A stretch of 64,000 nt of DNA. Source: Paludibacteraceae bacterium. GTDB lineage: Bacteria > Bacteroidota > Bacteroidia > Bacteroidales > Paludibacteraceae. Below the pieces are notes generated by a model. It had not been told where the DNA came from and did no database searches. It worked only from the letters and a program-made list of their open reading frames with translations. Shown one piece after another: positions 5,064 through 22,224 of this stretch. A program made the position numbers and the translations under genes. The DNA is taken from assembly GCA_024693065.1 (NCBI GenBank), contig JAILLP010000020.1, forward strand, positions 124,001 through 188,000. Reading direction: 5' to 3'. Numbering within the stretch: position 1 is the first letter of the stretch; the number at the start of each line of letters is the position of its first letter.

Positions 5064-6239
5064 TTACCGGTTGGCCGCCAGCACATCTTCATAGCAGGAG
5101 ACGAGGAACCGACCCACCTCGTCGTATCCATAGCAACGGGCCTTTTCGCGAAGGCGCTCCGCATCATAGTCCGCATGGTGGTCTATCATCCAATCCATCT
5201 TGTCGCGAAGGGCATCCTCATCGCCCGGGTTGATCAGACAGCCCGATTCGTCGTCCACCATTTCAGGGATGCCCCCCACGTTGGTGGAGATGACAGGCGT
5301 GCCCGTAGCCAACGCCTCGGAGATAACCACCGGCGCATTCTCAGCGTTGGAGAACAACACAAAAGCATCCGTTTCGGCAAAGCGGCGGCACACCTCATCA
5401 GGAGGCAGTTCGCCAAGGAAAGAGACGAGGCCGTCAGGGAGACAAAGCTCCTTCGCATAATTCCTAACCATCTCATAATCAGGACCGACCCCCACCATCG
5501 TCATCGAGAAGTCAGTCCGTTTCTCCGACAAGCGTTTCACCGCCCGCAAGATACCGCAGACATTCTTGGCAGACTCACTGAAGCAGGAGATATGCAGGAA
5601 CCTGAACCTGCCTTGGGGAATGAGAGGCTCTTTCTTTGCATCATAAAAGAAGTCATCCACCACATTACGCACCACACGGTAATGGTCGCTTTCCAATCCC
5701 TGCTGACGCATCACGTTCGACAAATGTTCGGAGACAGGGAGCACACACGAAGCATTCCTCACCACCAGCTCGCTGACCCGTTTGCGGAGGAAACCCCTAT
5801 ACTCATTTTTGGAGGGAAGATACCTCGTCCAATGCTCCACGACGACATAAGGGATGCCGAAGCGTTTCTTCAACCAATAGGAGAGCACACCGCAGCGGGT
5901 CAAGACATTCGTCTGGGTAACATCAGGCCTGCCGAAGCGTTCCTCCACCAAAGCGTAGCCCTTTCTGAAAGCCCGTAGGAAACCGAAAGCCTTGCTCATC
6001 TGCCGCAAAACAGGGATTTTGGAGAATGGATAATAGACATACAACTCACGCACGCCATTGGTCACCTGATCCACCACCTCATACTTCCCCACCTTCTCGT
6101 CCGCGAACAGATAGAGCACGCAGACGCCGCAACGTCGGGCGACCGCCTCCGCGTGTTTACGGACGAACAAGCCCAACATCGCATCGTAGCGATGAGGATA
6201 CCAAGGAGTTAAATAGAGCACCTTTAGCATAGAAGTCAT
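5064..6239 (-). CDS. Glycosyltransferase family 4 protein
   Basis: This 391-residue protein has the two-domain GT-B architecture. The N-terminal MLKVLYLTPWYPHRYDAMLG resembles the acceptor-domain start of GT4 enzymes. The C-terminal half has the nucleotide-sugar motif ENAPVVISEALATGTPVIS, with two glutamates spaced as in the E-x7-E signature, followed by NVGGIPEMV. Family members transfer sugars from activated donors in cytoplasmic glycan or lipid-linked assembly; donor and acceptor cannot be read here. The start may instead be the methionine three codons in (position 6230), which fits the family better. The gene is single, convergent with the GLUG gene and separated from DUF5606 by a terminator-like hairpin. 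Confidence 0.88.
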   Translation of the reverse strand: MTSMLKVLYLTPWYPHRYDAMLGLFVRKHAEAVARRCGVCVLYLFADEKVGKYEVVDQVTNGVRELYVYYPFSKIPVLRQMSKAFGFLRAFRKGYALVEERFGRPDVTQTNVLTRCGVLSYWLKKRFGIPYVVVEHWTRYLPSKNEYRGFLRKRVSELVVRNASCVLPVSEHLSNVMRQQGLESDHYRVVRNVVDDFFYDAKKEPLIPQGRFRFLHISCFSESAKNVCGILRAVKRLSEKRTDFSMTMVGVGPDYEMVRNYAKELCLPDGLVSFLGELPPDEVCRRFAETDAFVLFSNAENAPVVISEALATGTPVISTNVGGIPEMVDDESGCLINPGDEDALRDKMDWMIDHHADYDAERLREKARCYGYDEVGRFLVSCYEDVLAANR

Positions 6240-13665: not shown

Positions 13666-15048
13666 TTATTCGTGCGGCTCGCCTAGGATTTTCCTCGCCA
13701 CATCGAAAGCCTGTTTGATCCTATCCCCTATGCCTATACCGTCCCGCAGGTTTCCTGCGATCGTCAGGGAGGGATACCGCTCCTCCAGTTGGGCGATCGC
13801 CTGCAATCGGTTGTCCGACGACGCCTCGTATTGCGGAATGGCCCGCTCGTGGCGGAAGATCCGCACCTTGTCCGCCCGTTTCTCCTTCGGGTATTGAAGC
13901 ATTTCGCTGAGGGATTGATTCACCCATTGGGTCAGCTCCTCATCGCTCTTCTGCAAGTAATCGGGATGGCGGGAGCCTCCGATGAAGTAGGAGAAGGTTG
14001 CACCGCCTTGTGGCGCGCGCCCTTGGAAGCAGGCGGAAGGGAAAAGTATGCCGAGCAGATTCTTTTTCTCGCAGGAAGGGACTAATCCTCCGAAGGCCTT
14101 CCATTCGTTGCCTTGGCAATCCGCTATTCCGACGCCCACCTGAATGACCGGCGCGTAGTAGAGGTTGCTGATGTTGTGCATCTGCGTCTCGCTGACGAAG
14201 GGCAAAAGCTGCGGAAGCGCATAGGCGCCACAGGTGGTCACCACATGGTCGGCGTGCAATTGGAGGCTCTCCCCTCCTTTTTCGTATTGGATATTCCACC
14301 CTCCCTCGTTGTCAGGTGTTATGGATATATTCATGGCGGAAGTGGTGATGTGCTCGCTTCCGATAGCCTCCGCGATCGCCTCGACAAGGTTGGAGAAGCC
14401 ACCCTTGGAGGAGAACACCTTGCGGCTGACCCGTTTCTGTTGCTCCGTCTTAGGCATTTTAGCTTTTGCGATACTGCCCTTGATGAAGGAGCCATATTGT
14501 TGCTCCAAGGCATAGAGGCGGGGCAATGCCAGACGTACGGGGAGCTTGTATGGGTCACCCGCATAGACACCGGAGAGAAACGGATCAACGGCGTAGTCTA
14601 CATAGGATTTGCCCAGCCTACGTTCAGCCAAGGAACCCACCGACTCGTTGGGGTCTGTCCCCTTCGCCCGCCATGGCTCGCCTAAGATCCTGAACTTATC
14701 CTTCCAGGTGAACAATGGTGTGCGCAAGGCGCTGACCAGACCGGAAGGCAATGCGTGGAAGCGATCCTTCTTCCATATCAGGCGTCTCTTGCTGGACTCC
14801 AGCGCAGTCTCCATCTGGCACCGCTCCGATAGCTGGTCGAAGAGCTCCACCACCTCATAGTGCTTCACGACACCCGTGTTCGGACCGCTTTCGAACGTGA
14901 AGCCCGCATTGCTCCATGTCTTGATCTGTCCGCCTATTCTATCCATGCATTCCAGTACCATCACGTCCTTGCCTTTCCTCGCGAGTTGGAAAGCGCACGT
15001 CAGCCCGGTTATGCCTGCACCAATGATTACGATATCATGATTCGTCAT
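13666..15048 (-). CDS. hemG: Protoporphyrinogen oxidase, HemY type
   Basis: This 460-residue FAD enzyme oxidises protoporphyrinogen IX to protoporphyrin IX at the end of the pathway. It begins with the dinucleotide-binding motif IVIIGAGITGLTCAFQLA followed by GGQIKTW. It has the C-terminal FAD contact typical of the family (AGNLRDGIGIGDRI). Homologues of this HemY class in Gram-positives can act as coproporphyrinogen oxidase; here the presence of HemN suggests the classical protoporphyrin route. It is the last gene of the heme operon and starts one base after the hemN stop. In Bacteroidota the gene is often labelled hemG although the protein is HemY-like. Confidence 0.92.
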   Translation of the reverse strand: MTNHDIVIIGAGITGLTCAFQLARKGKDVMVLECMDRIGGQIKTWSNAGFTFESGPNTGVVKHYEVVELFDQLSERCQMETALESSKRRLIWKKDRFHALPSGLVSALRTPLFTWKDKFRILGEPWRAKGTDPNESVGSLAERRLGKSYVDYAVDPFLSGVYAGDPYKLPVRLALPRLYALEQQYGSFIKGSIAKAKMPKTEQQKRVSRKVFSSKGGFSNLVEAIAEAIGSEHITTSAMNISITPDNEGGWNIQYEKGGESLQLHADHVVTTCGAYALPQLLPFVSETQMHNISNLYYAPVIQVGVGIADCQGNEWKAFGGLVPSCEKKNLLGILFPSACFQGRAPQGGATFSYFIGGSRHPDYLQKSDEELTQWVNQSLSEMLQYPKEKRADKVRIFRHERAIPQYEASSDNRLQAIAQLEERYPSLTIAGNLRDGIGIGDRIKQAFDVARKILGEPHE

Positions 15049-15049
15049 A

Positions 15050-16417
15050 CTATATGGGTTTTGAAAATTGTTTCGTTGTTGCCTGCATCAGGGGGTCGAA
15101 CGACGCCGCCACGTTCCGCACGAACGGGTGACCCGCCTCTGTCATGACGATCCCCTCATTCTCCCTTCGGAGGATACCGTCCGCCGCCATCTCGTCCAGC
15201 ACCGACTCGTCGTATCGGATGGCTTTTTGTATCTCCGGGACGGGGATGGCTAAGGTTTCGGACAACTCCTCCCAGGAGATCCGGTAGTTGCACATCAGTC
15301 GTTCGATCACCTCTCGGACGATCCTCTCCTCCGCTGTCAGGAAATAGCCTTTCCGGATGGGTAGTTCGCCCGCCTCCACAGCGTGGATGTATTCGCTGAT
15401 GTCCTTGGTGTTTTGAGCATAGCTGCCGTCCAATTGGCTGATGCCCGTCACGCCTAATGCATAGACCTGCCCTGTTGTCCGCAGGGTGCAATAACCTTGG
15501 AAGTTGCGGTGTAGCAGGCCCTCCTCGTATGCCACGTGGAGCTCGTCCGAAGGCAGGACAAAGTGGTCTAGCCCGATGCTTTTATAACCCGCCTCACGAA
15601 GCCTTTCCGCGGCTTGCTCATACATGCGTTTCTTCACTTCCCCGCTTGGCAGGCCATGCTTCTCCAGAATGAGCTGGCGTTTGAAGACCCAAGGGACATG
15701 CCCGTAGCCGAACGTGACCAGCCGGTCTGGACGCAGAGCGATGGCTTTCTCTATGCTCTCCATGAAAGATTCCGGGGTCTGATAGGGCAAACCGTAGAGG
15801 AAGTCCATGTTGATGGAGGCGCCCGCCCCTCGTAGGATCCCCATGATCTCTTGTAGTGGCAGTGCGGCAGGCTGGCGTCCGACGCACGATAGAACCTTTT
15901 CGTCAAAGTCCTGTATGCCTATGCTAAAGCGGTTGAAGTGCCCCTTCGTCAAGGCTTCCCAATCTGCGTGTGTGAGGTAGCCCGGATGACATTCGATGGA
16001 GATCTCCTTCCCCTCGATGCAAGGGAAGAGGGAGAGGATATGGTCGTTCAGTTCGTGGAGGACCGGGATAGGCAGGGAGGTGGGGGTGCCTCCGCCGTAG
16101 TGTATTTGGCTCACCGGGCGGTTCCTGTCCAGCAGGGAAGCGATCCGCTCGATCTCCAGGTGCAGTGCCTTGACGTACTGGTCCACAGTGTCTTGGTCCG
16201 GCATGATGTAGGAGTTGCACCCGCAATAGTGGCACAACCTTCTGCAGAAGGGGATATGCAGGTAGAAGGATAGATTACGCCTGCCTACCCTGTTCGATTC
16301 CTTCACGGCCTCGATATAAGCACTCTCCTCCACCGCATGGAAATAATTGGCGGGAGGGTAGCTCGTGTACCTCGGCACGGATACGTTATACTTTTCCAAC
16401 AAATCCATCTGAGTCAT
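15050..16417 (-). CDS. hemN: Oxygen-independent coproporphyrinogen III oxidase
   Basis: This 455-residue radical-SAM enzyme decarboxylates coproporphyrinogen III without oxygen. The signature is complete: RYTSYPPANYF at the N-terminus, the 4Fe-4S motif in HIPFCRRLCHYCGC, the SAM-contacting HYGGGTPT, and the HemN-specific LHRNFQGYCT near residue 325. The last of these distinguishes it from HemW-like proteins. Length matches true HemN. It lies 13 bp after hemL in the same operon. Use of HemN rather than HemF fits an anaerobic lifestyle. Confidence 0.95.
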   Translation of the reverse strand: MTQMDLLEKYNVSVPRYTSYPPANYFHAVEESAYIEAVKESNRVGRRNLSFYLHIPFCRRLCHYCGCNSYIMPDQDTVDQYVKALHLEIERIASLLDRNRPVSQIHYGGGTPTSLPIPVLHELNDHILSLFPCIEGKEISIECHPGYLTHADWEALTKGHFNRFSIGIQDFDEKVLSCVGRQPAALPLQEIMGILRGAGASINMDFLYGLPYQTPESFMESIEKAIALRPDRLVTFGYGHVPWVFKRQLILEKHGLPSGEVKKRMYEQAAERLREAGYKSIGLDHFVLPSDELHVAYEEGLLHRNFQGYCTLRTTGQVYALGVTGISQLDGSYAQNTKDISEYIHAVEAGELPIRKGYFLTAEERIVREVIERLMCNYRISWEELSETLAIPVPEIQKAIRYDESVLDEMAADGILRRENEGIVMTEAGHPFVRNVAASFDPLMQATTKQFSKPI

Positions 16418-16430
16418 TGTCTATGGGGAA

Positions 16431-17702
16431 TCAATCGTTGAAGTCGCGCACGAGTTCGACGAATCGTTCCAAGTCCTCCTTCGTGTGTTTTATGGAGATG
16501 AAATTGCTCTCAAACTGGGATGGGGAGACGTATACGCCGTGGCGCAGCATATAACGGAAGAACGCCGCGAAGCGTTGCTGGTCCGTGCGGTTGACGTCCG
16601 AGAAGTTCCGCACCTCGCCTTGGGTGAAGAACAATGTGAACATGGGACCGACACGGTTCAGCACCATGTTCTTCTCCTTGGCGACTTCCCTCAACTCCTT
16701 GTCGAACGCGTCGACCCTGCCGTTCAGCTCTTCGTAAAAGCCCTCCCGCATTAGTTGCGTGAGTGTCGCGATACCTGCGCTCATGGCGACAGGGTTGCCG
16801 CTGAGGGTACCCGCCTGGTAGACAGGACCATTCGGGGCGAGCATCTCCATGATCTCCGCGCGTCCGCCAAAGACCGCGGCGGGGAATCCACCCCCGACGA
16901 TCTTCCCTAAGGTTGTCAAGTCCGGCTCAATGCCAAACCATTTCTGTGCCCCACCGGAGGAGAGGCGGAAGCCCGTAATGACCTCGTCGAAGATCAGCAG
17001 AGATTGGTACGCCGAAGTGATCTCCCTCAGGAAAGGGAGGAAGTTATTGTCAGGAAGCACCACACCCATATTGGCGGCCACAGGTTCTAGTATGACGGCG
17101 GCAATCTCTTGTCCGTATTCCTCAAATATCTTTTTCACAGCCTCCGTATCATTGTAGGGAGCCACTAATGTCTGCGACACGAATTCACGGGGCACCCCGG
17201 CGGAGGAGGCGTTTCCCAGCCGCGCGACGCCGGATCCCGCACTGACGAGCAGATGATCCGCATGCCCGTGGTAGTTCCCCTCGAACTTGACGATGTATTT
17301 CCGGTTGGTGTATCCCCTTGCCAGGCGGATCGCGCTCATCGTGGCCTCCGTGCCCGAATTGACGAAGCGCATCCGTTGCATCGAAGGGAAACATTTCCGC
17401 ACCAGTTTGGCCAACTCCGTCTCCGGCAGGGAGGGGATACCGTAGCTGGAACCCCGCTCGACGGCCTCGTGCACGGCTTGGTTGACCGAAGGATGCGCAT
17501 GACCCAACAGGAAGACACCCCATGACAGGCAATAGTCCGTATAGGCGTTGCCGTCGATGTCGTATATCTTATTATCCACCGCATGGTCGATGAACAGGGG
17601 CGTTTCACCCACCGCCTTCAACGCTCTGACAGGGCTGTTCACCCCTCCCGCGATATATTGGACGGCCTCCTCAAAGGCCTTTTTTGATCTTTCTCTTTCC
17701 AT
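16431..17702 (-). CDS. hemL: Glutamate-1-semialdehyde 2,1-aminomutase
   Basis: A PLP-dependent aminomutase of 423 residues that makes 5-aminolevulinate from glutamate-1-semialdehyde. Family motifs include AGGVNSPVRALK, the cofactor region FVNSGTEATMSAIRLARG, LIFDEVITGFR and the PLP lysine in TLGKIVGGGFPAA (near residue 265). The length is normal. It lies 6 bp after hemA, and together they form the C5 route to 5-aminolevulinate. Confidence 0.96.
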   Translation of the reverse strand: MERERSKKAFEEAVQYIAGGVNSPVRALKAVGETPLFIDHAVDNKIYDIDGNAYTDYCLSWGVFLLGHAHPSVNQAVHEAVERGSSYGIPSLPETELAKLVRKCFPSMQRMRFVNSGTEATMSAIRLARGYTNRKYIVKFEGNYHGHADHLLVSAGSGVARLGNASSAGVPREFVSQTLVAPYNDTEAVKKIFEEYGQEIAAVILEPVAANMGVVLPDNNFLPFLREITSAYQSLLIFDEVITGFRLSSGGAQKWFGIEPDLTTLGKIVGGGFPAAVFGGRAEIMEMLAPNGPVYQAGTLSGNPVAMSAGIATLTQLMREGFYEELNGRVDAFDKELREVAKEKNMVLNRVGPMFTLFFTQGEVRNFSDVNRTDQQRFAAFFRYMLRHGVYVSPSQFESNFISIKHTKEDLERFVELVRDFND

Positions 17703-17708
17703 GGTCTG

Positions 17709-18608
17709 CTATTTTGTTTGAGTGGTTTTATTGAGCGATAGGTCTTGCCACTTCATGAACTTATCAAGCTCTTCGTGGATGATGACATCCGCCTTCCCAA
17801 TCTCCTCGTGACGCAACTTGATGTTTTGATTGGCGATCCTTTCGATGTCTTCAATGTTGTAGAGGAAGATGCCGGGCAGTTCTCCCACCGATTCGTCCAC
17901 ATCCCTAGGGAACGCCAGGTCTACGACCAATATCTCCCGTCCCGCCGGGAAATCCTCTTTGGAGAAAATGGTATGGGGAGCGGAAGTGGCACTGATCAGC
18001 ACATCCGTTTCCTCCAACAACGTTCTGAGGGAAGTGAGTGCCACCGCCTTGTACCCGTAACTACCCGCCACAGGCAAAGCCTTCTCTTGGTGACGGTTGA
18101 CCACAACGACATTCTTCGCCTCCTTGGCGGAGAGGAATTTCAGGATATCCTCGTTCAATTTGTTTATACCGACCACCTTGATCCTACTTGTCTGGAAATC
18201 AATATTGTGTTGGGCGAGAACGTCTACTGCGACTTGGCTGTGGGAAACCGCGCCTTCGGAGATGCGGGTCTCTGTCCGTACCCGTTTCCCGGTGTGCATG
18301 GCGTACTGGAACACCTTGTTGAGGCCGGCGGATAGGTTATACTGCGCCATCGCCTCCTGATAAGCCAGTTTTATTTGCCCTTGGATGGCACGTTCCCCCA
18401 CGATCGCCGACTCCAGTCCGGAGGCGACGCGAAACAGGTGCTCGGCCATCTCCAGGGGCACCTCTCCGTCGCCCCAGTACAGCTCCGTACGGTTGCACGT
18501 GGCCAACAGGACGTGCGGGATGTTCTTGTTGACGGCAAGGTCTGCGATCAGTTTCTCGCGTTCCTGCAGGTTGTGCTCTTTGTTGTTTATTACTCGACTC
18601 TCAATCAT
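17709..18608 (-). CDS. hemA: Glutamyl-tRNA reductase, C-terminally short
   Basis: This enzyme reduces glutamyl-tRNA to glutamate-1-semialdehyde. The catalytic cysteine is seen in LLATCNRTELYW (Cys38), followed by RVASGLESAIVGERAI and the NADPH domain with SATSAPHTIF and VVDLAFPRDVDESVG. The protein is only 299 residues, against roughly 415-420 in most bacteria. It ends soon after FMKWQDL, where the extended dimerisation domain normally begins. The usual glycine-rich GAGE motif of the NADPH fold is replaced by VVGINKLNED, and the catalytic domain is also some 20 residues shorter than in E. coli. The stop is followed within 6 bp by hemL, so the reading frame appears genuinely short rather than broken. 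Confidence 0.85.
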   Translation of the reverse strand: MIESRVINNKEHNLQEREKLIADLAVNKNIPHVLLATCNRTELYWGDGEVPLEMAEHLFRVASGLESAIVGERAIQGQIKLAYQEAMAQYNLSAGLNKVFQYAMHTGKRVRTETRISEGAVSHSQVAVDVLAQHNIDFQTSRIKVVGINKLNEDILKFLSAKEAKNVVVVNRHQEKALPVAGSYGYKAVALTSLRTLLEETDVLISATSAPHTIFSKEDFPAGREILVVDLAFPRDVDESVGELPGIFLYNIEDIERIANQNIKLRHEEIGKADVIIHEELDKFMKWQDLSLNKTTQTK

Positions 18609-18635
18609 CTTTCGTTCTCTAAAGCTGGCATCAGG

Positions 18636-19601
18636 TCATTGTTTGAAAAAATCTTTCGCATAATAGGATATGATATAATCCGCTCCGGCACGTCTCATGG
18701 CGACCAGGCTTTCGAAGAATATCTTCTTCTCGTCGAAATATCCCTGCTTGGCGCCGTTCTTCAGCATGGAGTATTCGCCCGATACCTGATAGGTGACCAT
18801 CGGATATTCTGGGTACATCTGATGCGCGCGGCAGACGATGTCCAGGTATGCGAGGGCTGGCTTGACCATGATCCAATCGGCACCCTCCGCAATATCCGCA
18901 GCGATTTCCTCCAAGCCTTGGTCCTTTGTGCGGAAATCCATCTGGTAGGTTTTCCTGTCGCCAAAAGAGGGAGCGCTGTCCGCCGCGTCCCTGAAAGGAC
19001 CGTAATACGATGACGCGTATTTGGCGGAGTATGCCAGGACCTTTGTCCGTGTCAATCCCTCCTTGTCCAATCGTTGGCGGATAGCCTCCACTTGTCCGTC
19101 CATCATGGCGGAAGGCGCCACGAAATCGGCCCCCGCCAAGGCATGCTGATAGGCCATCTCAGCGAGCAGTGGTAGCGTGCTGTCATTGTCGACGTCACAG
19201 TCGCAAAGGAGTCCGCAATGCCCGTGCGAGGTATATTCGCATAGACAGACGTCCGTGAAGACGATCACCTGCGGGAACTTCGCCTTGATCGCCTTTACCG
19301 CCCTGCTGATGATATTGTCAGACTTGTAGGCTGCGGAACCTCGCTCGTCTTTCTCTTCTTGTGGAATGACACCGAACAGTAGTACTTTGTTGATCCCGAA
19401 GGAGAGTAACTCTGCTATGTCGGTGAGTAGTGTGTCGATGGAGAAGCGGAAGACGCCCTCCATGGTGGAGATCTCCTCTTTCACACCACATCCATCCATC
19501 ACGAAATAAGGGTATATGAATGATTCCGGACCAATCGATGGAACATCTGCGTGTTGGTCACGGACAATCTGTGAAATCCTTAAGGGTCTGAATCGTTTCA
19601 T
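18636..19601 (-). CDS. hemB: Porphobilinogen synthase (5-aminolevulinate dehydratase)
   Basis: HemB condenses two 5-aminolevulinates to porphobilinogen. The 321-residue TIM barrel has both Schiff-base lysines, in VLAYSAKYASSYYGPFRDA and DWIMVKPALAYLD. The zinc site is the cysteine-rich segment CLCEYTSHGHCG, so this is the Zn-dependent type. It has normal length and is the third gene of the operon, 13 bp after hemCD and 27 bp before hemA. Confidence 0.96.
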   Translation of the reverse strand: MKRFRPLRISQIVRDQHADVPSIGPESFIYPYFVMDGCGVKEEISTMEGVFRFSIDTLLTDIAELLSFGINKVLLFGVIPQEEKDERGSAAYKSDNIISRAVKAIKAKFPQVIVFTDVCLCEYTSHGHCGLLCDCDVDNDSTLPLLAEMAYQHALAGADFVAPSAMMDGQVEAIRQRLDKEGLTRTKVLAYSAKYASSYYGPFRDAADSAPSFGDRKTYQMDFRTKDQGLEEIAADIAEGADWIMVKPALAYLDIVCRAHQMYPEYPMVTYQVSGEYSMLKNGAKQGYFDEKKIFFESLVAMRRAGADYIISYYAKDFFKQ

Positions 19602-19614
19602 AATAATGTGACAA

Positions 19615-21147
19615 TTATAATAGTGAATCTGATATTTCTTTCGTCGTTGTCTCTCCTTTGCCTGTCAGCGGAATATCGCTGGGTAGCTTTCCGTAGCGGG
19701 AGACGAAGGCCCTCACCCCTGACGGAGAGGAAAATAATATTTCATCGTACACCGACAAATCCTCCACCATGGGGGCCTTCTCGTCCGTCACGGTCTTGTA
19801 AACAGACAAATCGGTCACTTCGTTGCCCATCTGTCTCAATTCCTGCGGAAGGGCTGGGATGCCGATGGCGGAGCGAGGCATGAGGATGCGCTTCCCGGTG
19901 ATACCGTTGCGTTTGAAATAGGCTATGATGCCTTTCGCTGATGTTGTCTCTGATTCGTAGACGGGTGATAGTCCCAATGCGTTTAGGGATTGGGTGGTGG
20001 CTCCACCGACGCTGATCAGTTGGGTATCTTTCAGTAGCGAACGTTCGGATGCGCTCAGTTGATCCGTGAAGTGTCTCACACCGTTCCGGCTGGTGAATAG
20101 GACGTAGTCATAGGGTGGGATGTCCTGTAGGGAGAAGAATTCGCCCAAAGGGATGGCCTCCGTTCGGATGAGTGGGGTGTGCATGATGGTTCCGCGTCCC
20201 TCCGCCCATTGCGTCGTAGTACCCGTGACGAGCACTTTTCTTGAACGCCCGTTTCCTCTGGAACTCTCCTTGACAAGCATTAAAATTGGGGAGGAGGAAA
20301 GGATTTTGGTGTATTGTAGTTCCGTTAGATTGAATTGAAAACACCTCTCATTGTCTTTCCCCAAGTGGCAGATGAGTTGGATGTTCGTTTGTGGATCAAG
20401 CCCCATCTCCTGTATCTTGAGCACCTGCTCGGGGATCTGTTCCCCGTCGAGGTAATAGGCATGGGTCAAGCCTTTACCTGTGCGGTGTAGCTTATCGGAT
20501 GCGAACAGCCGTCTGCTTTTTTCGTCCCCACATCTCCCTACGATGGCGATATGTCCTTGTAAGGGATGCGTCTCGAAAGGAAGAGGCTCCGCGATTCTAT
20601 CGCTTAGGCCTAGGCGGTGCAGGGCGCAGGAGGCGACGATCAGACCCTCGAAGTCACCCCTATCCAGCTGGGCGATCCGTTCCTCTATCGTGCCGCGCAC
20701 ATCCACGACCCGCAGGTCTTCCCGCAACCTCACCAACTCTTTTTTCCGCATGGCGGAGCTGGTGGCTATCCTTGCCCCCGAGGGCAGTTGGTTCAATGGC
20801 AAATTGCCCTTGCTGACCAGTGAGTCCGTTTTGTCAAAGGCGCTGGTCAGGGCATAGATCTCCAACCCTTTCGGGAGAGGGAAAGGCAGGTCCTTAGCGG
20901 AGTGGATCGCCACGTCGGCTCGTCCATCCAATATGGCCGCATCCAGTTCCCTGGTGAAGAAATCCGCGGGGATGCCTCCCGTGAGGGATTGCTCCTTGTG
21001 CTTGTCTCCGTATGATTCGAGGGCGACAAGGTCGTAGTCCATGTGGTCCATAAGAGAGAAGAGCTCTTCCACCTGCAGAAGAGATAACCGAGATGATCGT
21101 GCTACTACTCTCAACTTATTATTGTTCATGTAATTTGCGCTATTCAT
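19615..21147 (-). CDS. hemCD: Fusion: HemC domains 1-2, SUMT C-lobe-like segment, HemD
   Basis: This 510-residue fusion covers the two steps from porphobilinogen to uroporphyrinogen III. Residues about 10-216 match hydroxymethylbilane synthase domains 1-2: RVVARSSRLSLLQ, HSAKDLP with the catalytic Asp86, and VDVRGTIEERIAQLD. HemC domain 3, which normally carries the dipyrromethane cofactor on a GGC cysteine, is not recognisable. Residues about 226-296 instead resemble the C-terminal lobe of CobA/SUMT methyltransferase (YYLDGEQIPEQVLKIQEMG, LDPQTNIQLI, SPILMLVKE). Residues 303-510 match uroporphyrinogen-III synthase (KVLVTGTTTQ, VLFTSRNGVRHF, LFSSPSGVRAFVSRYG), ending 20-30 residues early. The start overlaps the hemE stop by 4 bp (ATGA), implying translational coupling. 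Confidence 0.82.
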   Translation of the reverse strand: MNSANYMNNNKLRVVARSSRLSLLQVEELFSLMDHMDYDLVALESYGDKHKEQSLTGGIPADFFTRELDAAILDGRADVAIHSAKDLPFPLPKGLEIYALTSAFDKTDSLVSKGNLPLNQLPSGARIATSSAMRKKELVRLREDLRVVDVRGTIEERIAQLDRGDFEGLIVASCALHRLGLSDRIAEPLPFETHPLQGHIAIVGRCGDEKSRRLFASDKLHRTGKGLTHAYYLDGEQIPEQVLKIQEMGLDPQTNIQLICHLGKDNERCFQFNLTELQYTKILSSSPILMLVKESSRGNGRSRKVLVTGTTTQWAEGRGTIMHTPLIRTEAIPLGEFFSLQDIPPYDYVLFTSRNGVRHFTDQLSASERSLLKDTQLISVGGATTQSLNALGLSPVYESETTSAKGIIAYFKRNGITGKRILMPRSAIGIPALPQELRQMGNEVTDLSVYKTVTDEKAPMVEDLSVYDEILFSSPSGVRAFVSRYGKLPSDIPLTGKGETTTKEISDSLL

Positions 21148-22169
21148 TTCCAGTTGTCTTCATCTTTTATCCATTCCGTCAGGAACCGAAGGTTATCGAA
21201 AGGCGTGTTCGCCAATACGCCATGTCCCAAGTTGAGGATCCACCTGCCACGATGTTCTTTGAAGAATGGCACGTAGGTGGATTTCATCGCGCCGACGATT
21301 CTCTCCTGGGTGGTCAGCAACAGGTATGGGTCTATGTTCCCTTGTAATCCGACCTCTGGGTGCACCAGCCTCCGAGCCGTGGAGAGAGGCGTCTGCCAAT
21401 CCACGCTCACGTAGTCGCACACGTCGGGCGTCATGAGGGAGAGCCCCGCACCTATGCCTTTGGGGAAATAGATGAAGGGGATGTTGCGTTTTCTGACGGC
21501 CGTGGCGAATCGCTTCACCGCAGGCAGGAACAACTCCTCGTATAGTGTTTGCGGGATCACCCCCGCATGGGTGTCGAATAGTTGGAAAGCGTCGATGCCA
21601 TGGTCAATCTGCCTCAACGCATGCTCTATGCTGAATTCGGTCAGGAGGTCTATGCAATAGCGGGTCTCTTGGGGCCTCTCGTAAAAGAATTTCCTCGCAT
21701 CCGGGAACTCTTGCCTTCCGCTCATGCCCTGTAGCATATAGCACAAGGTGGTCAGCGGGGCGCCGCAAAAGCCAATCGTGGGCACCTGTGACCGTTCTTT
21801 CACGATGTCCAAAGCATCGTATACGTGCGAAAGCTTGCTAAGGTCGGGACGGAGGATTGTGCGGGGATCCTTCTCTTCGCAGAGAGGCTTCCTGAAGCGA
21901 GGCCCGTGGTCGGTCCATTCGAGGTCCATCCCCAAAGCGGTGGGCACGGACAAGATGTCGCTGAAGACGATGGCGGCATCCACACCTAAATCGGAGACCG
22001 GCAATAGGGTCACATCCGCCGCCAACTTAGGGTTGTGCATCAACTCCTCGAACGAGTACTTTTCCCTTAGTTTCATGTAATTAGGCAACACTCTGCCGGC
22101 TTGGCGCATATACCACACAAGAGGACGGTTGCCTCTCTCACCTTTCCGTTCGTCGTCACCTAGGAACAT
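21144..22169 (-). CDS. hemE: Uroporphyrinogen decarboxylase
   Basis: HemE decarboxylates the four acetate side chains of uroporphyrinogen III to give coproporphyrinogen III. The hallmark segment RPLVWYMRQAGRVLPNY is close to the N-terminus, and PTIGFCGAPLTTLCYMLQG and HTHAG-like FDTHAGVI follow. I place the start at the ATG at 22169 (341 residues). The longer frame begins with a GTG that overlaps the -7 promoter element, so it would not be fully transcribed. This is the first gene of the heme operon and overlaps hemCD by 4 bp. Confidence 0.93.
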   Translation of the reverse strand: MFLGDDERKGERGNRPLVWYMRQAGRVLPNYMKLREKYSFEELMHNPKLAADVTLLPVSDLGVDAAIVFSDILSVPTALGMDLEWTDHGPRFRKPLCEEKDPRTILRPDLSKLSHVYDALDIVKERSQVPTIGFCGAPLTTLCYMLQGMSGRQEFPDARKFFYERPQETRYCIDLLTEFSIEHALRQIDHGIDAFQLFDTHAGVIPQTLYEELFLPAVKRFATAVRKRNIPFIYFPKGIGAGLSLMTPDVCDYVSVDWQTPLSTARRLVHPEVGLQGNIDPYLLLTTQERIVGAMKSTYVPFFKEHRGRWILNLGHGVLANTPFDNLRFLTEWIKDEDNWK

Positions 22170-22216
22170 GCTTGGATCTCTTTGTTTTCGGATAATAAAT
22201 AAAAAGTATTCAGCCA

Positions 22217-22224
22217 CAAAATTA
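22217..22224 (-). promoter_or_regulatory. -7 element of the heme operon promoter (TAATTTTG)
   Basis: A perfect TAnnTTTG on the minus strand, about 48 bp before the hemE ATG. No TTTG or TTG is visible 19-21 bp upstream, as expected for an activator-dependent promoter. Confidence 0.65.

Follow-up and report, generated by a model that had tools for sequence, protein, structure and literature searches.

A heme operon fusion protein carries a HemC of a sequence-defined two-domain subfamily that lacks the cofactor-bearing domain 3

Hydroxymethylbilane synthase (HemC) carries an unusual dipyrromethane cofactor that is made from porphobilinogen and attached to a cysteine, Cys242 in the E. coli enzyme, as set out in PMC7242693 and PMC8561815. 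In the textbook cycle given in PMC7242693, two porphobilinogens form dipyrromethane on Cys242, a catalytic aspartate helps to add four more, and the tetrapyrrole is then cut off. PMC3945110 ties impaired cofactor binding by E. coli HemC to the substitutions R131L and R132L, an effect on activity to K55Q and K59Q, and harm to activity to R232H; R232 lies past the last hinge (218–221) and thus sits in domain 3. Searches of the open-access literature, weak evidence of novelty as they are, listed no description of a HemC without domain 3.

The window analyzed here, a 64,000-nt stretch of a Paludibacteraceae genome (3.48 Mb, completeness 100), encodes on its minus strand a 510-residue protein (positions 19615–21147) that joins a two-domain HemC, an apparent relic of the CobA/SUMT C-terminal lobe, and HemD. 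HemC domains 1 and 2 occupy 20515–21114 (minus strand; residues 12–211; PF01379, E = 5.1e-47), the lobe 20242–20484 (minus strand; residues 222–302), and the uroporphyrinogen III synthase (HemD) domain 19630–20193 (minus strand; residues 319–506; HEM4, PF02602, E = 4.4e-31). An AlphaFold2 model of the whole fusion has a mean pLDDT of 93.5 and a pTM of 0.71. The frame is part of an operon-like series on the same strand (13666–22217) in the order hemE, fusion, hemB, hemA, hemL, hemN, hemG. The end of the upstream hemE (uroporphyrinogen decarboxylase; 21144–22217; PF01208, E = 5.6e-91) overlaps the start of the fusion by 4 bases. Downstream follow hemB (18636–19601; PF00490, E = 9.3e-132), a short hemA encoding a 299-residue glutamyl-tRNA reductase (17709–18608; TIGR01035 at 238.7 bits, above the cut-off; PF05201 partial), hemL (16431–17702; PF00202, E = 1.2e-72), a gene for a hemN-like radical SAM coproporphyrinogen III dehydrogenase (15050–16417; PF04055 and PF06969), and one for a hemG/hemY-like protoporphyrinogen oxidase of the amine oxidase fold (13666–15048; PF01593, E = 3e-44); the name hemL and that of the oxidase were assigned from operon position.

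Two features of the pathway genes stand apart from the fusion itself. The operon extends to protoporphyrinogen oxidase, yet a profile search of the genome gave no match to three known chelatase families: ferrochelatase (PF00762), CobN/ChlH (PF02514), and CbiK (PF06180). Short glutamyl-tRNA reductases occur both in the window (299 residues; 17709–18608, minus strand) and at locus L095 of a relative (259 residues; 5255–6031); in both, the best GlutR_N stretch covers profile positions 90–151 only, and the dimerisation domain is not listed. Short-form HemA is fused to short HemC in six relatives (L016, L017, L020, L021, L023, and L024).

PF03900, the profile of HemC domain 3, has no Pfam match at E ≤ 1 in the fusion and none in the whole genome, while the control was positive in 11 of 14 genomes. 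No separate domain 3 was thus found elsewhere in this genome. Nor was a second HemC: the fusion frame is the sole PF01379 match. Compared with a canonical three-domain HemC, the protein has domains 1 and 2, the catalytic Asp84, and the substrate-binding arginines, and it lacks domain 3 with the GGC cofactor cysteine, as well as Arg232. Judged from the alignment with E. coli HemC, which we used for residue numbering throughout, the porphobilinogen-binding and condensing residues are kept: D86 of the window protein corresponds to the catalytic D84, and R17, K85, R134, R151, R157, R178, and Q197 correspond to R11, K83, R132, R149, R155, R176, and Q198.

The same holds for relatives of this kind. 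We compared 102 short HemC rows (94 distinct, as some MAGs were reached twice) with 37 three-domain rows. None of the 102 short and 37 three-domain rows departs from the equivalents of E. coli R11, Q19, K83, D84, R132, R149, R155, A170, R176, Q198, and G199. In contrast, the R131 equivalent is Arg in 37/37 three-domain but in 27/102 short rows (Met133 in the window protein), and, in a loop where the alignment is less certain, Lys occupies the K55 position in 30/37 versus 2/102 rows and the K59 position in 29/37 versus 0/102. Short rows have marks of their own, E28 (98/102), D62 (97/102), and A84 (102/102). By this comparison, short HemC keeps the condensation site, including R132, while R131, R232, Cys242, and the loop lysines are lost or relaxed.

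Identification of the middle lobe came only through relatives, as direct Pfam and PDB searches were empty or insignificant. As a single sequence, residues 222–302 match nothing in Pfam or PDB, the Pfam scan finds no TP_methylase (PF00590) in the fusion, and a four-row profile of window-type lobes gives insignificant PDB hits (E 0.018–0.5; precorrin-4 methyltransferase 0.018, CysG 0.06). Elsewhere in the genome TP_methylase has one match, in a 240-residue frame. When four window-type lobes were aligned by hhalign with ten CobA C-terminal lobes, the probability was 98.8 (E = 6.9e-17), and the CobA lobe profile in turn matches SUMT 1s4d (E = 2.2e-15). Same-family relatives have HemC-CobA-HemD open frames of about 630–690 residues; in an alignment with these, about 140–150 residues, the N-terminal half of CobA, have no counterpart in the window protein, which retains the C-terminal lobe. 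The missing part includes GxGPGxP and GGDP, letters seen in the aligned relatives that we take to be motifs of the SUMT N-terminal half. An AlphaFold2 model of the lobe alone (pLDDT 84.1, pTM 0.72) gave 741 Foldseek matches at E ≤ 10, none at E ≤ 0.001 (best E = 1.4e-3). The best 50 of the 741 are all methyltransferases (TM 0.53–0.67), titled SUMT, CysG, precorrin-4 methyltransferase, RsmI, diphthine synthase, PH0725, or plain 'methyltransferase', which presumably belong to one superfamily, that of the tetrapyrrole methylases. Taken together, these alignments and models indicate that the lobe is a remnant of CobA left after loss of its N-terminal half. Without that half, methylation by the lobe is not expected, and it should act as a linker or be a mere relic that methylates nothing.

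Absence of domain 3 is not tied to this lobe. A search of 120 family genomes matched 30, one of them solely through HemD, and HemC frames came from the remaining 29: six are three-domain with the Cys motif and 23 lack domain 3. The latter comprise eight of the window type, seven HemC-CobA-HemD, six HemA-HemC (with HemD nearby as a separate match), one HemC-HemD, and one standalone HemC in a 218-residue open frame. Standalone two-domain HemCs measure about 206–220 residues, which leaves no room for domain 3. As all these other architectures lack domain 3 too, the domain is missing independently of the lobe. The standalone HemC (L025, genome G054) is from the window's own genus and adjoins a separate HemD; it clusters with a Prevotella-titled row (SH-aLRT 84), apart from the window type, a placement that hints at gene exchange among members of the family. 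One HemC-CobA-HemD locus (L019, genome G029) has a TGA within the match to residues 228–503, and its frame may be interrupted. In a sample of 247 genomes of the phylum, PF01379 matched in 203 and PF03900 in 197, so short HemC is rare across the phylum as a whole.

A contig scan with an 11-row alignment (A1), from which the best 80 of 575 confirmed loci were used, extended the set well beyond the family. The titles among these 80 include Bacteroidales, Babeliae, Margulisbacteria, Elusimicrobia, Spirochaetes, Auribacterota, Omnitrophota, Chlamydiae, Verrucomicrobia, Kiritimatiellae, Lentisphaerae, Planctomycetales, and others. Going by record titles, which can be wrong for MAGs, the two-domain HemC would span about a dozen phyla; the scan patterns (HSAKDLP-like, FTRELD-like) favor the short form, so the set is no census. 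Among the window protein and 80 related frames, PF01379 matched 81/81 and PF03900 one, a match that we attribute to L111 on account of the SGC motif in its sequence. Partner domains were HEM4 in 43, TP_methylase in 39, and GlutR_N in eight of the 81. Two NCBI hydroxymethylbilane synthase models match all 81 proteins; the window protein stays under both cut-offs, with 160.3 bits for NF002202 (cut-off 251) and 158 bits for TIGR00212 (cut-off 164). A tblastn search of plasmid records matched 79, of which 20 were listed; five were taken for closer reading, and the HemCs read in four of them (all but L145) are all three-domain.

Unrooted trees, which fit either loss or gain of domain 3, were built from domain 1–2 columns with residues 174–175 left out. 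In the 104-row tree a branch with SH-aLRT 98 sets the three-domain rows apart. The 77-row tree, which adds E. coli, Proteus, Nocardia, Pseudoroseomonas, and a chlamydial three-domain protein (a Streptomyces protein, L145, is outside it), has a single branch that splits 59 short from 18 three-domain rows (bootstrap/SH-aLRT 100/98). The window protein has the marks of the short group: PF01379 without PF03900, A84 in HSAKD, E28, D62, and placement on the group's own branch. As far as sequences and trees define one, the two-domain HemC is a distinct subfamily.

Chlamydiota are rich in this form. PF01379 matched in 70 of 79 genomes, once each, and 69 of these 70 showed no PF03900. The one PF03900 match (L148) falls below the cut-off at 22 bits, in a protein that reads as a three-domain HemC; since the profile is thus weak in true three-domain proteins, the 69 absences rest on the profile together with 28 examined sequences and L158, itself a short HemC. 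Several chlamydial frames with short HemC are 418–476 residues long (L153, L154, L156–L158, L160, L161, L166, L167, L176, and L177). Judged by eye, they are probably HemC-HemD fusions, and fusion to HemD may therefore recur within the short subfamily.

Short HemCs differ in their cysteines. Cys174 of the window protein (codon at 20626–20628, minus strand; E. coli A172) is a candidate new anchor. It is the only invariant cysteine of alignment A1 and is Cys in 72/102 short rows (64/94 distinct), in 0/37 three-domain rows, and in 44/46 rows of the window protein's branch. The two exceptions are spirochaete proteins (L064 and L065, Brevinematales/Spirochaetes) that lie inside this branch with Ile at 174 and Cys at 79, beside HSAKD, possibly a swap of cleft cysteines. 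Cys174 is missing from 30/102 short rows, six of which have no cysteine at all in residues 1–216, and 28 chlamydial short HemCs (of 30 loci, L148 and L158 being left out) have no cysteine in common. A universal Cys174 anchor, considered when 23/23 short and 0/6 three-domain sequences had the residue, was dropped at 72/102 in the wider set and is ruled out also by frames without any cysteine.

Four of 107 short frames (L073, L088, L095, and L097) encode no cysteine along their entire length, so a cysteine thioether to dipyrromethane is impossible on these HemCs. Each is the sole PF01379 match in its MAG, and exactly one match was found in all 12 MAGs tested; as MAG completeness is not stated, a second HemC could be missed beside the Cys-free genes. 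Directly after each of the four come CobA and hemB, with CobA fused to HemD in L073, L088, and L095 and alone in L097. Glutamyl-tRNA reductase is upstream in L073 (partial), L095, and L097, with none seen at L088; a hemL-type aminotransferase is downstream in L088, L095, and L097, while the L073 contig stops after hemB. Near L088, L095, and L097 there are also genes of sulfate assimilation (PAPS reductase, ATP sulfurylase, or sulfite reductase). From this gene content we infer that the loci are siroheme operons. Since some members have no cysteine, the subfamily would have to be able to hold the chain or primer without a HemC cysteine.

These observations suggest how a short HemC could work. 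For the chemistry of an addition the D84 site and the arginine cleft suffice; both are kept, and we propose that short enzymes run the same condensation: four porphobilinogens would be joined to hydroxymethylbilane in the domain 1–2 cleft around D86, with a chain that no thioether ties to domain 3. Across the subfamily, the chain or a dipyrromethane primer would be held non-covalently by an arginine/serine cleft; as R132 and other dipyrromethane contacts are kept, such a primer may still be bound. In the branch of the window protein, a replacement anchor could be Cys174, which lies on the wall of this cleft. The fused HemD would then close hydroxymethylbilane. The window protein itself is probably a bifunctional hydroxymethylbilane synthase/uroporphyrinogen III synthase whose HemC part comes from the two-domain subfamily and has no domain-3 anchor. 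The broader reading, that a large and old subfamily builds the bilane without covalent dipyrromethane, cleft-held, and that domain 3 with its anchor is optional and belongs to one branch of the family, has in our estimate not quite an even chance.

Other explanations were weighed against this one. It is hardly credible that domain 3 is present and merely too diverged for Pfam: the isolated lobe does lack a Pfam match, and the weakness of PF03900 in true three-domain proteins such as L148 would fit, but hhalign links the lobe with the CobA C-terminal lobe at 98.8%, Foldseek pairs its model with methyltransferases, and some homologues stop right after domain 2. For these standalone homologues, which end there, the reading is ruled out. 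It is very unlikely that the CobA lobe now does the work of domain 3 within the window fusion, even though it follows domain 2 directly, has a similar size, is confidently folded in the AlphaFold2 model, and is reached by Foldseek alignments with hydroxymethylbilane synthases (HMBS) that span about 290–300 columns, gaps included. Relatives with full CobA, HemA-HemC, HemC-HemD, or HemC alone lack domain 3 as well, and no HMBS is among the best 50 of the 741 Foldseek matches of the lobe. The lobe also evolves fast, with 35% identity for a pair that has 73% in HemC, and its cysteines are not common to all window-type proteins. Supply of the cofactor cysteine or domain 3 in trans is improbable; fusions with HemD, CobA, or HemA are frequent among short HemCs, as the partner domains of the 81 frames show, but no one partner is common to all architectures and PF03900 is unmatched in the window genome.

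Decay of the HemC part, with hydroxymethylbilane no longer made, has an equally small chance. The missing domain 3 and cofactor cysteine and the lack of PF00762, PF02514, and PF06180 matches in the genome would fit it; the active-site residues that are invariant in 102/102 short rows, the status of the fusion as sole HemC copy, the remaining operon genes, all open and recognisable, and the 70 of 79 Chlamydiota genomes with exactly one PF01379 match, 69 of them without PF03900, speak against it. So does selection: pairwise comparison of four congeners (six pairs) puts pN/pS at 0.047–0.164 for HemC, 0.235–0.536 for the lobe, and 0.165–0.666 for HemD, values that rest on small numbers of changes (1–4 nonsynonymous per pair in HemC). 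Of the three parts, HemC is under the strongest constraint, which argues for function. A relocated anchor, by which dipyrromethane in the window's branch would remain covalently bound, now at Cys174 of domain 2, deserves more credit, although we consider it doubtful on balance. The distribution of Cys174 (every A1 row, 44/46 branch rows, no three-domain row) favors this role, and Table 1 of PMC3945110, which summarizes a simulation, has the corresponding A172 in contact with the chain once the tetrapyrrole stage is reached. The same table does not list A172 among the contacts at the dipyrromethane stage, and the window protein has Met in place of R131, a residue that the mutant data in that paper tie to cofactor binding by the E. 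coli enzyme; 30/102 short rows lack Cys174, including the two spirochaete proteins nested in the branch, and six have no cysteine in residues 1–216. Conversely, its retention in 44/46 branch rows would be odd if the residue were functionless, which speaks against a fully anchor-free window enzyme. For the window protein, the comparison leaves an untethered and a Cys174-tethered chain about equally likely.

The original prediction held that the protein has HemC domains 1 and 2 with the catalytic aspartate, lacks domain 3 and its cysteine, and contains a SUMT C-terminal lobe without the N-terminal half; the PF01379 match with D86 at the D84 position, the empty PF03900 searches of protein and genome, and the agreement of the relatives' alignment, hhalign, and lobe Foldseek bear this out. 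Neither profile searches nor a structure model of residues 217–302 showed a domain 3 fold, the genome has no separate complete HemC, and the homologue survey found other short HemCs without domain 3 within the family and beyond. Its suggestion of a remnant HemC-CobA-HemD fusion is supported by the full versions in relatives, from which only the CobA N-terminal half is gone here. That the lobe stands instead of domain 3 is not supported, given the four other architectures that lack the domain. A new way of holding the primer gains strength for the whole subfamily from the absence of Cys242 and R232, the unconserved R131, K55, and K59, the retained condensation residues, and the four Cys-free members, but it would not be due to the lobe; and the step is likely still carried out, with the reservation that the three known chelatase families were not found in the genome.

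Similar short enzymes in many bacteria suggest that the bilane chain can be built without a covalent tie. With a two-domain and partly Cys-free subfamily, the need for the dipyrromethane cofactor becomes directly testable with small, simple proteins, which bears on the counting and release of four pyrroles and on cofactor evolution. It bears also on annotation, as hydroxymethylbilane synthase models match short HemCs without domain 3.

Among known systems, three-domain HemC (E. coli, 1PDA) shares with the window protein domains 1 and 2 and Asp84, R11, K83, R132, R149, R155, R176, and Q198, at 26% identity across the Foldseek alignment. It differs by having domain 3, Cys242, and R232, all absent here; R131, K55, and K59 are unconserved in the short form, and E28, D62, and A84 are specific to it. 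The 17 PDB HemC sequences matched by phmmer have chain lengths of 310–389, and none is short. The best NCBIfam match of the window protein is NF002202 (PRK01066, length 241), a short HemC model without room for domain 3 that we take to be of chlamydial origin and whose cut-off the protein does not reach. Most chlamydial rows have Ala where the window protein has Cys174, and the window protein adds the CobA lobe and HemD. The HemC-CobA-HemD relatives (L011–L015, L022; L035, L038, L040, and others) have the same order and the same two-domain HemC, with 54–60% identity to the window HemC in L011–L015 and L022; they keep a whole CobA, whereas the window protein has only its C-terminal lobe. With SUMT/CobA (1S4D) and CysG (1PJQ) the protein shares the fold and pattern of that lobe, while their N-terminal half is wholly missing, and methyltransferase activity like theirs is not expected.
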